NCBI GenBank assembly: GCA_903893855.1 | Contig: CAITNV010000030.1 | Location: forward strand, 1 to 45,270 | Reading direction: 5' to 3' | DNA: 45,270 bases | From: Candidatus Tayloriibacteriota bacterium | Lineage (GTDB): Bacteria; Patescibacteriota; Minisyncoccia; Phycocordibacterales; PALSA-1337 | Shown here: positions 21,696-28,701 of the stretch, piece by piece | Layout of the letters: each line of letters starts with the position of its first letter | Position numbering within the stretch: position 1 is the stretch's first letter | The notes under the pieces: model-generated | Database searches by the model: none | Seen by the model: only the letters and a program-made list of their open reading frames with translations | What the model was told of the DNA's origin: nothing | Program-made: the position numbers and the translations under genes

Positions 21696-21893
21696 TATCC
21701 ACTACTGTCCCACAAAAGCTTTAAATTGACCCTTGGGAAGAAACGAAACAACTTGTCCGAAGATTGTGCTAGAGCAATACATGGAAAAAGCCCTTGAGGC
21801 GTTTAAGTCTCTACTAAGCTCGACAGCTTTAGTATGGCTTACCTCAAGGACTTTTTCTATGGTGGGGTTAATTTAGTGGGACAGTAGTGATAT
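21696..21893. repeat. MITE-like or structured element bounded by inverted repeats CACTACTGTCCCAC / GTGGGACAGTAGTG
   Basis: 14-bp perfect terminal inverted repeats plus a nested ~20-bp hairpin CATGGAAAAAGCCCTTGAGG/CCTCAAGGACTTTTTCTATG. Confidence 0.75.
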
Positions 21894-23305: not shown

Positions 23306-23425
23306 GGTGGTAGTTTAGCATGGATTTTAAAATCATTTTAGTAAATAGAAATTGACACTACTTCATAAAATATTTGTATTAAAAAACTCGAGTTGCCAAT
23401 TAAAAAAAATGTTATAATTCTAATA

Positions 23426-24535
23426 ATGATGACTACACAAAATAAAAAACTAAATAAAGTAAGTGTTGTGAGTCTTTTCTCTGATAAAAAAGATTCCAAG
23501 AAGGCTGCGGCTTTTAAAATGATTGATCTTTTTGCTGGGATTGGTGGTATACGGCTTGGATTTGAAAGCATCGGCGGAGAATGTGTATTTACTTCTGAAT
23601 GGGATGGACCTGCGCAGAAAACCTATCTTGCAAACTTCGAGGAAATGCCCTACGGAGATATTACCAAGATTGAACCACAAGATATTCCCTCTTTCGATGT
23701 TTTACTTGCAGGCTTCCCTTGTCAGCCCTTTTCTCAAGCCGGTAAAAAGCTTGGACTCGCTGACACGCGAGGTACCCTTTTCTTTGATATCGCGAAAATA
23801 GTTGAACATCATAAACCAACGGTAGTATTTCTTGAGAATGTTAAACGGTTTAAAAGTCACGATGGAGGCAGAACATTCGAGACGATCAAAAGTATTCTCG
23901 AAGGACTTGGCTATGAAATATACGCGCAAGTTCTCAACGCCAAGGACTTTGGTGTTCCTCAGAATAGAGAGAGGATTTATATCATTGGCTTTCTTGGAAA
24001 GACGAATTTCACTTTTCCAACACCTTCTGGTAAGAAGACTAAACTTGGAGACATTCTAGAGAAGAAAGTGGATCCAAAATATACGATATCAGATAAGCTC
24101 TGGGCTGGGCATCAACGAAGGAAAAAAGAGCACCGAGAGAAAGGTAATGGTTTCGGATATTCTATGTTTAATGAAAATTCGGAATACACGAGCACGATAT
24201 CAGCTCGTTATTATAAAGACGGTTCTGAAATTCTTATTGAACAGAAAGGTAAAAACCCTAGGAAATTAACGCCGAGAGAAGCGGCTCGATTGCAAGGATT
24301 CCCTGATGATTATGTTATATCTACGAGTGATAACCAAGCCTATAAACAATTTGGCAATAGTGTTGCGGTGCCGGTTATTAAGGCACTTGCGAAGGAGGTT
24401 GAGAAGGCGCTTAAACAACTTAAGAAGTCTACGGACAGCGATTCAAAATCAATTAATCTTGATGAAATTAAACAAGAAAGCGTAACGAAAGCAAGGAAAA
24501 GCGTTGCTTCAAAATTAGTAAGTGTCAGTCACTAG
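23426..24535 (+). CDS. DNA (cytosine-5) methyltransferase of a type II R-M system
   Basis: MIDLFAGIGGIRLGF, GFPCQPFSQAGKK, ENVKRF, QNRERIYIIGF, PREAARLQGFPDDY, QFGNSVAVPV. Confidence 0.95.
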   Translation: MMTTQNKKLNKVSVVSLFSDKKDSKKAAAFKMIDLFAGIGGIRLGFESIGGECVFTSEWDGPAQKTYLANFEEMPYGDITKIEPQDIPSFDVLLAGFPCQPFSQAGKKLGLADTRGTLFFDIAKIVEHHKPTVVFLENVKRFKSHDGGRTFETIKSILEGLGYEIYAQVLNAKDFGVPQNRERIYIIGFLGKTNFTFPTPSGKKTKLGDILEKKVDPKYTISDKLWAGHQRRKKEHREKGNGFGYSMFNENSEYTSTISARYYKDGSEILIEQKGKNPRKLTPREAARLQGFPDDYVISTSDNQAYKQFGNSVAVPVIKALAKEVEKALKQLKKSTDSDSKSINLDEIKQESVTKARKSVASKLVSVSH

Positions 24536-25303
24536 AGAATCCCAATACTTATTATTTGCCCGCCATTGAGAATACGGTCTCACATTACCCTGATACATAC
24601 CACTATCGAAGAAAATATGCCCTTTTCTCACGCCATCAATCCAAGATTTAAAACTAATAGGTGCGCCAAAAACGATTTTTGAATATGCGCCAGTTTCATC
24701 CTTGAGACACTTAAACCAGCCTAGTTTATTAAATTTCTTTTCAACTCTCTCCTTCATCATTTCTGCACTCCATTCTGCAATAACTAGAATGTTCTTCTGC
24801 ATATTCTTTGGAACGATTTTGTCTTTATCGGGTCGGGTATCTTCTCGGTAAGAATAGACAGCAAAAATATTATCCTGATCATCCACCTTGAGTATTTGTC
24901 CAAAGGGACTAAACACGTTTATTTTTGGAGATGGTTTTCCAGACCATGAATATCTTTCCCCTTTCTTTAGGTTAGGTGCACCAAAAATCTCTAGGAATTG
25001 ATCGCGATCGATTCCATATTCTTCATCTTTGAATATATAGTAGCTTGCTGACCAGTCACCAAAGGTTGTTTTGCTTGTGGTGTCACTCTTCATTTCGAAA
25101 CCATAGAGGTCGGGTGCGTTATCGGCGTTGTGAGCAACACCCATCTGTGTCTCTAGCCAGTAACCGTCTTTGCCGTCGTGGCGTTTGTTTGAGGTTGAAA
25201 TATCGGGGATTTTGTCTTTGACATTTTTGTTGAAAAGCCTGACGATTTTTCTTTTTATCTCTTCAGTGTTGTTTGCGCCGCTTGGATTCTTGACATCAGT
25301 CAT
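24515..25303 (-). CDS. LlaMI-like type II restriction endonuclease
   Basis: DGKDGYWLETQMGVAHNADNAPDLYGFEMKSDTTSKTTFGDWSASYYIF resembles the LlaMI family (recall); convergent with the methyltransferase. Confidence 0.8.
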   Translation of the reverse strand: MTDVKNPSGANNTEEIKRKIVRLFNKNVKDKIPDISTSNKRHDGKDGYWLETQMGVAHNADNAPDLYGFEMKSDTTSKTTFGDWSASYYIFKDEEYGIDRDQFLEIFGAPNLKKGERYSWSGKPSPKINVFSPFGQILKVDDQDNIFAVYSYREDTRPDKDKIVPKNMQKNILVIAEWSAEMMKERVEKKFNKLGWFKCLKDETGAYSKIVFGAPISFKSWIDGVRKGHIFFDSGMYQGNVRPYSQWRANNKYWDSLVTDTY

Positions 25304-25486
25304 AATGTGGTACATGGTAGCAGAAAAGGGGGGATAATGCCACACATAAGAAAAATTGAGCCCCTACTCAATAAAATTGATATTTAATAAAATCTTTCAT
25401 ATTTAAAAATATACAATTACGTGTTCGATATGTAATAACTTTTAATTAATAAACAGCTAGTATTAAGAAAATATCAAAATCCTTTA

Positions 25487-26812
25487 CTAAGAAGGTCTTT
25501 TCGAATTCTTTTTACTTTTTCGTATAAATTTTTCAAACTTTTTCTTTTGAGAAGTAATTCTTGATCCGATTGTCTGCATGGCGATAGCTGCGTTACTAAT
25601 ATACGAACTACCTATCTGCTTACGACCTGCCTTGTGCGACTTGTGTCTGTATCCACCTGTCTGTCTCAGCTGATACTTGCGAATCTTCTTGTCAGCCTTC
25701 TTGTACGACCTTTGTAGGGTCTTATCACGAAGTAACACTGCTTGCCCGTCGAATTTGAACCCGAGATAATCAACGTATCTTCTTCCAACAGGATTTTTGT
25801 CACCATCCTTTACATCTGTACACACGACACTCCCGTCAGCTTGTCGCTCGAATTTAACGAAGAAAGCTTTTTTGGCATTTATATCCAAAGCATATTTTTC
25901 TATCTCACTCTTAAGCGTAGATAGTACGGTATCCGCAACATCAGCCGGACACACAAGGACAATGTCATCGCTGTAGCGTCTATATAGAGCATTTGGAAAT
26001 GCGCTACGAATTGCAGAATCAAATGCCGACAGGTAGACGTTCGCTAACAGGCCACTCACAGGACTTCCTTGAGGAATACCTATCTCTGTTTTGTTCGTCT
26101 TAACTAGCTTCTTACCTGATTCGTACACAGCTTGCGGCAGAGATTTTCCTTTTCGTACATCTCGCACTATCCGCGGCGCAAGACGAGCGTATGCGCTGTT
26201 CCAAGCCTTGTCTTTGAGCACAAAACGAAACGCGGAAAGAGATCGAAAAACCTTGTATTCATTCGTTTTAAGCTCACCCACACCCAGCACCGCACATAGA
26301 CGTTCTTTAAGCGTCTTATGTTTCAGCGTGTCGAAAAACTTTGAAATATCAGCGACAATCGCCACGCAATCACCGTGTTGTTGAATATATTGAAATACCT
26401 CGCGGGCGAATTGAATATTACCTTTATTGCGAGTTCCATCATCGGCAATCTTACGATATGCAATGACGCTCTCCGCGCTTCCGTTTGCCGCTATAAATTC
26501 TTCGTATGCTCGACCCCAAACATAGGAATAGAATCCGTAAATATGAGCATCCAGGTGAGATGCGTACATTATAGGTCGAGGCTTGATGCTGCGATGAGCT
26601 ATTCCGGTTTCATTCTTCCGATAACGTACATCTTTCATTATGAACTTTAAAAATGGGAGGAACTGGTGGGCTGGTATATTCTCGATGGCACGTTTTACCA
26701 AAGCAAAATCCTGATCGTTATCTAGGTCCAACGACTTATCAAAATGCTGATATGTACGCTTCTTCTGCTTTGGTCTGAGCGAAGCACGCCATTGTGTATA
26801 GACATCATCCAT
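25487..26812 (-). CDS. Stand-alone reverse transcriptase, UG/DRT type (possibly UG2/DRT2-like)
   Basis: RT motifs KPRPIMYASHLDAHIYGFYSYVW, CVAIVADISKFFDTLKHKTLKERL, GIPQGSPVSGLLANVYLSAFD, RRYSDDIVLVCP; no maturase or endonuclease domain. Confidence 0.85.
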   Translation of the reverse strand: MDDVYTQWRASLRPKQKKRTYQHFDKSLDLDNDQDFALVKRAIENIPAHQFLPFLKFIMKDVRYRKNETGIAHRSIKPRPIMYASHLDAHIYGFYSYVWGRAYEEFIAANGSAESVIAYRKIADDGTRNKGNIQFAREVFQYIQQHGDCVAIVADISKFFDTLKHKTLKERLCAVLGVGELKTNEYKVFRSLSAFRFVLKDKAWNSAYARLAPRIVRDVRKGKSLPQAVYESGKKLVKTNKTEIGIPQGSPVSGLLANVYLSAFDSAIRSAFPNALYRRYSDDIVLVCPADVADTVLSTLKSEIEKYALDINAKKAFFVKFERQADGSVVCTDVKDGDKNPVGRRYVDYLGFKFDGQAVLLRDKTLQRSYKKADKKIRKYQLRQTGGYRHKSHKAGRKQIGSSYISNAAIAMQTIGSRITSQKKKFEKFIRKSKKNSKRPS

Positions 26813-26827
26813 ATTGTAGATGTGTAA

Positions 26828-27115
26828 AAGCCCTCGTCCTCAAGTGAGTTTCAGCATACTCATTGGACAAGGGCTCACAGAAAATCTGGGTTGTGCGCAC
26901 GACATGTGCCCGAAAGCACAAGGCTGATAATTAACATTGATATAATAATAACGTTGACACAAGAACACTTTATGTCCTATCTTGCCTTCACTATCATTAC
27001 ACTGTTGACCGCGATAACAGGCCGAAGCTTGCATATCGTGGCAAACGATTAGCCCAGTGCCCCTAGACATGGATAGCCGCACAGCCAAAGTCCATCCAAT
27101 ACCGAACACTGATTA
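26828..27115 (-). ncRNA. Candidate structured ncRNA directly upstream of the RT gene
   Basis: Serial hairpins on the minus strand, ending with AGCCCTTGTCC...GGACGAGGGCT (11 bp with one wobble) that finishes 16 nt before the RT ATG. Confidence 0.6.
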
Positions 27116-27316
27116 AAAGATTGTCTCACAAAATTTGTAGAAATACAATATATAACGCCTCTTTTGATAAACTGAATAATGTTTGAGAAGAAACATCATC
27201 ATATTAGGACTTACGCAGAAATATTTACTCAAAGAAGGAACGATTGACGAGAAGCGAGAACTGGTGCCATCGTTTAAATGTAAACCATTACTTATTATAA
27301 GAGAGTAGTTTTAGTG

Positions 27317-28369
27317 TCATTGGAGTGATGAAAACATATTCGCTATTTCAGTTCCTCTCTGCAATAGGTCTTGATATGTAAGCACTTCTATACCATGAAG
27401 AGAATGATTCATCTTTCTTAATGCTTCTTTTTTATCTTTTTGCCAGTGTTCTTTGTTTCCTATCAAAATAAAGGCTCGAGGTTTAATTATCGAAACTTCT
27501 ATTCCGTACACCTTCATTATTTTTTCTTGTAATTCGTATCTGTAATGTTCGACGTCACAAAGATAATATACAACCTGTCCAAGTGCAGCATTTGTTTCAG
27601 GCGTCCATTTATATGCCCCAGGATGTGACGAGTCTGAGGTAATGACTTCATCCTCAGGCAATTTGATTTCGAGTATGTCGAGAAAGCCATCAACTGTTGG
27701 GAACAAATAGTCAGGCATACTACCTGAAAGGTTGATTTTTGTTTTTTCAAATGGATCAAGGTACTGGATACCAAAAATCCATGTGTGAGCGTAAATCCAT
27801 TTTTGCCAAGAATCTGGTCCTGTTGTCTCTGAATACTTTTTTGTCAATCTATTATTAAATTCATTAAGGACGGAAACTCTGTCTGCTTGAATTTGACCAA
27901 CCGCCAAGTGTGTAGCTAATTTTGGATTACTGTCTTTTAGGAGACTCCAAAAATCATCAGAATTATTGTTGGCAATCAATTGCCTCAACACCTCAGATTT
28001 ATTTTTGTCATCAACGATGATAACCTGATTTGCAGGAGCAGTTATATATTCTTGATCTCCTCTTTTTATACCAAGCTTTGCTATCTGGTCTCTGCCGTAT
28101 ATTGCGTCAAATAATTTCCTTGTGGACTCAGTGTTTAAATCAAGCTTTACACCTTCATGTAAATCAAGAGATATAAAACTTCTCTCAATAAGTTGTTCCC
28201 ACCCTTGACCTCTTTCTTTTTTAAACTTAACCAGAGTACCCCTTACTCCGCCACTATGAATCTGCGGTTTGAAGACTAAGGCGGTATCAGCTGTCTGAGT
28301 AAGAAGAACCCAGCTTGAATCAACTATTCCCTTTCCCACCGAATGAGTTTTGATCTTTTTTTCTTCCAT
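27317..28369 (-). CDS. Shedu-like nuclease (DUF4263, SduA-like)
   Basis: PDYLFPTVDGFLDILEIKLPEDEV...YKWTPETNAALGQVVYYLCDVEHYRYELQEKIMKVYGIEVSIIKPRAFILIGN (PD-(D/E)XK-like core). Confidence 0.75.
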   Translation of the reverse strand: MEEKKIKTHSVGKGIVDSSWVLLTQTADTALVFKPQIHSGGVRGTLVKFKKERGQGWEQLIERSFISLDLHEGVKLDLNTESTRKLFDAIYGRDQIAKLGIKRGDQEYITAPANQVIIVDDKNKSEVLRQLIANNNSDDFWSLLKDSNPKLATHLAVGQIQADRVSVLNEFNNRLTKKYSETTGPDSWQKWIYAHTWIFGIQYLDPFEKTKINLSGSMPDYLFPTVDGFLDILEIKLPEDEVITSDSSHPGAYKWTPETNAALGQVVYYLCDVEHYRYELQEKIMKVYGIEVSIIKPRAFILIGNKEHWQKDKKEALRKMNHSLHGIEVLTYQDLLQRGTEIANMFSSLQ

Positions 28370-28603: not shown

Positions 28604-28630
28604 CGCTCAATCGCTACGCTCTTTCGCTGG

Positions 28631-28701
28631 CTGCGGGACTTGGAATCGAACCAAGATTCACGGCTTCAAAGGCCGCTGTACTACCATTATACGATCCCGC
28701 A
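28631..28701 (-). tRNA. tRNA-Gln(UUG)
   Basis: TGCGGGATCGTATAATGGTAGTACAGCGGCCTTTGAAGCCGTGAATCTTGGTTCGATTCCAAGTCCCGCAG; anticodon loop CTTTGAA. Confidence 0.93.

Follow-up and report, generated by a model that had tools for sequence, protein, structure and literature searches.

A divergent, probably early-branching DRT2 system in a Patescibacteria genome, with a predicted Neo gene bounded by a non-ACA motif

DRT2 defence systems create a gene that is absent from the genome as a normal gene. In the Klebsiella representative (KpnDRT2) the reverse transcriptase (RT) repeatedly copies a 120-nt template of a noncoding RNA (ncRNA) by jumping between a pair of ACA motifs; at each junction of the cDNA repeats a -35 element meets a -10 element at 17-bp spacing, and neo is an endless frame on the strand antisense to the ncRNA (PMC11100668, PMC12039810). 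The published Neo is hydrophobic (PMC12039810), and a pseudoknot pairs G155-C159 with G250-C254, a few bases past the template (PMC12596737). Published work made neo readable just where ACA motifs mark the ends and left the matter unsettled for divergent clades, for which Tang et al. raised alternative mechanisms (PMC11100668). Telomerase and DRT10 likewise employ a matching alignment segment to which the product re-anneals before being recopied (PMC12039810, PMC12632851), although they belong to other RT lineages and produce a short simple repeat rather than a whole-gene unit.

Here, we analyse a 45,270-nt stretch of DNA (the window) from a Patescibacteria genome of 0.94 Mb (the host had already been taken, rightly, for a CPR bacterium in an earlier note made from the letters of this DNA), which probably carries a divergent, likely early-branching DRT2 system producing a Neo protein. 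The locus (Table 1) resembles KpnDRT2 (PDB 9c0i) in having a stand-alone RT of the same fold, an upstream predicted ncRNA, a matched motif pair, a unit whose length is a multiple of 3 and whose antisense frame is endless, a 17-bp junction promoter, and a predicted pseudoknot that joins the bases just past the template with the terminal loop. It departs from KpnDRT2 in RT sequence (~30% identity), motif (TTATC instead of ACA), unit length (87 versus 120 nt), the overlap of motif copy 2 with the pseudoknot arm, its Patescibacterium host, and an RNA that is unrecognisable by sequence. While the mechanism is already known, the non-ACA matched motif, the 29-codon unit and the Patescibacteria branch are new, as are indications, drawn from sequence, that the same rule may read Neo in many other DRT2s.

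Table 1. Features of the DRT2 locus and its neighbours (window coordinates)
Feature	Position	Strand	Basis or remark
C5 cytosine DNA methyltransferase, neighbour	23393..24535	+	Pfam 6.1e-110
LlaMI-type restriction endonuclease, neighbour	24515..25345	-	Pfam 4.1e-60
DRT2 (UG2) reverse transcriptase	25487..26812	-	441 aa, YSDD active site; PADLOC, NCBIfam, PDB, Foldseek, tree
Predicted DRT2 ncRNA, both ends approximate	26820..27115	-	fold z -3.15; contains all template and hairpin elements
Terminal hairpin, 11 pairs	26829..26875	-	arms AGCCCTTGTCC/GGACGAGGGCT; inner TGAGT/ACTCA stem
Predicted pseudoknot partner GCTGA	26851..26855	-	loop of terminal hairpin
Small hairpin CAGA-TTT-TCTG	26878..26888	-	occupies the place of the relatives' TAACT/AGTTA hairpin
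Predicted pseudoknot arm TCAGC	26923..26927	-	directly after template; pairs with GCTGA of terminal loop
Predicted jump motif copy 2, TTATC	26926..26930	-	immediately 3' of template
Predicted repeat unit, 87 nt	26931..27017	+ (neo strand; template on -)	top unit of unbiased scan
Predicted -10 element TATAAT	26941..26946	+	17 bp from -35 across junction
Possible neo start codon ATG	26972..26974	+	no clear Shine-Dalgarno before it
Predicted -35 element TTGACC	27005..27010	+	genomically out of order; joined at junction to next repeat's -10
Predicted jump motif copy 1, TTATC	27013..27017	-	template 5' end, within unit
Shedu SduA, island neighbour, not part of DRT2 system	27317..28369	-	PADLOC 3.9e-101

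The upstream region and its predicted repeat unit

The RT is separated from the next gene (sduA) by 504 nt. This agrees with the roughly 500 nt free of conventional genes announced by the earlier note, save that a 53-aa plus-strand ORF (26891-27052) crosses the region, its frame being that of the predicted neo. The same note had described 290 nt of serial hairpins: strong folding was borne out (the 296 nt upstream of the RT fold better than 200 of 200 dinucleotide shuffles, z -3.15; for the last 106 nt z is -2.9, with 2 of 200 shuffles equally good), whereas the region as a whole has a minimum-energy structure of several nested helices and not a series of hairpins. The terminal hairpin with its inner TGAGT/ACTCA stem was found as described, ending 16 nt before the RT ATG. 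Judged by sequence, the region would form a structured ncRNA with a pseudoknot near the 3' side of the template; across 50 loci the match between arm and loop within a locus exceeds that between loci (0 of 5000 permutations, in statistics that ignore kinship), and the arms in Kpn-like loci agree with the KpnDRT2 position. A consensus scan of the minus strand returned no ncRNA promoter.

Motif sites were initially placed by hand, which failed (the resulting 51-66 nt units were discarded), and the solution presented here came from a scan. Since neo is antisense to the ncRNA in KpnDRT2, we screened the 400-500 nt preceding the RT for antisense repeat units, i.e. identical k-mer pairs (at least 3) bounding units that are divisible by 3 and whose antisense frame is endless; each unit was scored on its junction promoter plus the length of its motif. 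The top unit in the window has 87 nt, is divisible by 3, is flanked by a TTATC pair and holds an endless frame (NIDIIITLTQEHFMSYLAFTIITLLTAII), while its repeats form the junction promoter TTGACC-17-TATAAT. Its predicted Neo unit of 29 aa (MSYLAFTIITLLTAIINIDIIITLTQEHF) runs endlessly over the repeats, so that the Neo gene can, on this reading, be predicted to the base. Its length falls below those quoted for published DRT2 units (111-129 nt), and 29 codons would be the shortest unit both among the loci analysed here and among those quoted in two DRT2 papers. Among 3000 dinucleotide shuffles of the window region 38 reached the score, none of them with an equally good promoter, and score and promoter together were matched by 0 of 1460 control stretches (420 nt, both strands of the window).

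Other candidate units fared worse. The window's ACA-bounded units, of 99 and 111 nt, have junction promoters of only 8/12 and 6/12. An 89-aa minus-strand ORF also spans the region, which would place Neo on the sense (ncRNA) strand, but the published neo is antisense; over 89 DRT2 loci, scores of at least 15 were attained at 42 loci on the antisense strand versus 11 on the opposite strand and 4.7 per shuffled set.

What the sequences show is the family of the RT, the arrangement of the elements, its excess over chance and the fact that it recurs in relatives. By analogy with KpnDRT2, from which we infer RNA binding, priming, jumping, second-strand synthesis, transcription, toxicity and the phage trigger, the locus may operate as follows. 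The RT would bind the ncRNA encoded directly upstream, and phage infection would set off reverse transcription of the 87-nt template (26931-27017). On reaching the 5' end of the template, the cDNA would finish in GATAA, copied from TTATC copy 1, and this end would re-anneal to TTATC copy 2 for a further round, yielding a tandem 87-nt cDNA with the predicted junction CCGCGATAA|TTAACATTG (also written CCGCGATAA|TTAACATTGATATAAT). Once double-stranded, the repeats would place TTGACC 17 bp ahead of the next repeat's TATAAT, a promoter reading the strand opposite the ncRNA, and the transcript would encode a hydrophobic 29-aa repeat in a frame without end. The Neo product would stop growth and thereby block the phage.

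Relatives and DRT2 loci at large

The nearest DRT2s to the window RT were three from Patescibacteria (L014, L015 and L087; 41-49% RT identity). A search of 380 genomes of the phylum, 247 of the order and 384 of the class returned matches in two genomes alone: G575, of the host's order (Patescibacteria UBA6065; match coordinates identical to those of L087's genome), and G856, of its class (Moraniibacteriota; coordinates identical to those of L086's genome). No DRT2 closer to the window RT was found in these phylum, order and class genomes or in viral contigs, and a scan for close relatives in viral contigs returned none; four viral contigs that matched a DNA pattern taken from the relatives' terminal loop all lacked a DRT2 match.

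The three relatives share with the window its branch, non-ACA matched motifs, 17-bp junction promoters, the placement of the pseudoknot and a terminal hairpin with compensatory changes, and differ from it by longer units and a long-range 5'-3' helix. The top unit is GTTGA / 171 nt / TTGACT-17-TATAAT at L014 and GTTAT / 144 nt / TTGCAA-17-TATAAT at L015, while at L087 GTA / 150 nt / TTGACA-17-TAAGAT ties for the top score; singly, these were equalled in 5, 6 and 30 of 400 shuffles, respectively. The scoring rule is not blind for these loci, because it was formulated after they had been viewed. In an alignment built without regard to the motifs, the motif copies of these three loci share columns (149 onward and 319 onward). 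The unit translations of the relatives are similar by eye (INLINHIMQLNMVYTF, VNLINHLNSNLMIYVL, TNLISRLMQLDMIRVL), and with that of the window all are hydrophobic (GRAVY 0.8-1.4).

The earlier note had made its reading depend on conservation or covariation upstream of the RT, which is present in part. Architecture is shared with the three relatives (their pseudoknot arms, GCTGAC and GTCAGC, lie at the same two places as in the window), and of ten terminal-stem pairs common to all four loci, four are altered on both sides. On the other hand, a covariance model of the 3' domains of the relatives, a weak basis with its three sequences, detects those three alone and not the window RNA, and the relatives' 5'-3' helix (CTTGTATT/AATACAAG) has no clear counterpart in the window.

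When ACA was required, the scan recovered the published layout at Kpn-like loci (L038, 105 nt, TTGACA-17-TATAAT; L036 and L040, 120 nt; L092, 117 nt). The promoter of the best unit reached at least 11/12 in 32 of the 89 DRT2 loci, versus 0.3 per shuffled set. Strong units occur in 22 RT clusters (grouped at 70% RT identity), in 14 of which the motif lacks ACA; the jump motif differs between DRT2s, and its two copies agree within each locus. A predicted non-ACA unit (TATG, 129 nt, TTGACC-17-TATAAT) was also seen at another Patescibacteria DRT2, from Nomurabacteria (L051, upstream of 2438).

We lean towards a wider reading, in which ACA is a special case: DRT2 templates would be bounded by an arbitrary, lineage-varying but copy-matched direct repeat, and Neo synthesis would go back to the common ancestor of all DRT2s, the basal Patescibacteria members with a unit of just 29 codons among them. 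If so, Neo genes left unannotated by published pipelines in divergent DRT2 clades would become readable once the ACA requirement is dropped. Neo is predicted here in one of the most divergent DRT2s, from a phylum of tiny genomes, and the result for the 22 clusters makes the generality of DRT2 gene synthesis directly testable.

The window might instead hold a DRT2 RT, an ncRNA and rolling-circle cDNA with template boundaries (unit length or motif) other than those proposed. The longer units of the relatives (144-171 nt), the two bases that motif copy 2 shares with the pseudoknot arm, and a branch known from four loci only speak for this; yet no second unit in the window is at once divisible by 3, endless in its frame and provided with a junction promoter scoring 11/12 or more, and the offset of the predicted unit (-13) is near that of Kpn-like units (-12). 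We regard other boundaries as unlikely and retain the 87-nt unit.

The reverse transcriptase and its placement

The earlier note's stand-alone RT lacking maturase and HNH domains is confirmed by Pfam, with RVT_1 as the sole domain of the ORF (boxes GIPQGSPVSGLLANVYL and RRYSDDIVLV), and its tentative assignment to a UG/DRT system, possibly UG2-like, can be made firmer, since profile, structure and tree support DRT2 (UG2) and not group II, DGR, retron or DRT9. Against the PADLOC models Drt2 scored best (354 bits, 3.9e-106), followed by UG17 (88 bits). Drt2 was also the top NCBIfam model (322.7 bits), below a curated cut-off of 390 bits that serves for naming and marks no biological feature; L014 (324.2 bits), L015 (312.3 bits) and L071 (370 bits), an accepted outgroup-side member, fall under it too. 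The single strong match in a PDB sequence search was Klebsiella DRT2 (9c0i, 2.8e-49). An AlphaFold2 model (pLDDT 86; thumb residues 390-416 of low confidence) resembles 9c0i in its predicted right-hand fold with long helical thumb and finger insertion (Foldseek 8.6e-34, TM 0.76/0.78), the next match being DRT9 (4.8e-12).

A tree built from 94 DRT2-like RTs, with an outgroup of 8 (this genome's own DGR-type RT plus more distant RTs of viral contigs), split the two sets at an SH-aLRT of 100; the window RT and the L014/L015 pair branched off basally, apart from a group of 91 (support 95). This basal position is likely but not firm, because the RTs were sampled by their similarity to that of the window and the root was placed on a distant outgroup. 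The divergence that the earlier note had expected from the YSDD box and the CPR host holds by score and tree; YSDD itself is no sign of oddity, since L008, L012, L014 and L015 carry it too.

The basal branch, along with the alternative mechanisms of Tang et al. (PMC11100668), would suit a DRT2-like RT that makes no Neo and whose ncRNA yields another DNA product, such as a homopolymer as in DRT9 or short repeats as in DRT10. With only 54.9 bits against the PADLOC Drt9 model (versus 354 for Drt2), a Foldseek match to DRT9 that is 22 orders of magnitude weaker, and the Neo layout present in the window, such a product seems very improbable, and we keep to a Neo-making DRT2. Decay into an inactive DRT2 locus is scarcely credible: the rarity of relatives could be cited for it, though nothing points to it directly, while the ORF is intact, all residues invariant across 37 DRT2s are kept, and the template retains frame, motif pair and promoter together. 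A group II intron-derived, retron or DGR RT beside an unrelated upstream RNA can practically be dismissed, for the RVT_1 match in its favour is generic to all RTs, whereas the NCBIfam group II maturase model gave 75 bits (cut-off 300), a split at 100 in the tree sets the RT apart from those of the DGR and group II-like kinds (the grouping that would have spoken against the earlier note), and no maturase, HNH, template repeat or variable repeat lies nearby.

The defence island and other observations

The DRT2 locus sits in a defence island (23393-28369), with a C5 methylase and a LlaMI endonuclease on one side and Shedu SduA on the other. The genes of the methylase and the endonuclease run towards each other and share 21 bases at their 3' ends (24515-24535). 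On an unrelated Psychrobacter plasmid (L006) a DRT2 also adjoins a LlaMI endonuclease and dcm; since the pairing recurs there, DRT2 and LlaMI systems may travel together. Another type II pair adjoins the DRT2 of L015, and those of L014 (1830-4661) and L087 (1213-7105) lie beside large serine recombinases and DNA methylases, which suggest a mobile or prophage-like element.

The island adjoins a tRNA-Gln(TTG) gene (28628-28701). In five genomes of the family, tRNA-Gln is likewise retained near dnaX, and the island genes were not found beside them (three of the five stretches end at a contig end); a direct repeat marking an insertion site beside tRNA-Gln was looked for at the island flank and none was found. 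Elsewhere in the window, an 18-nt inverted repeat (CACTACTGTCCCACAAAA, 94% complementary, arms 154 nt apart) lies at 21700-21889, where there is no clear gene.

The same genome encodes a second RT of DGR type (336 aa; contig C38, about 960-1950), upstream of which two near-copies, TGCGGCGGTGTCGGCAA and TGCGACGGTGTCGGCAA, are located near 1-30 and 490-515; by their sequence, these may represent the variable repeat and the template repeat of a diversity-generating retroelement.
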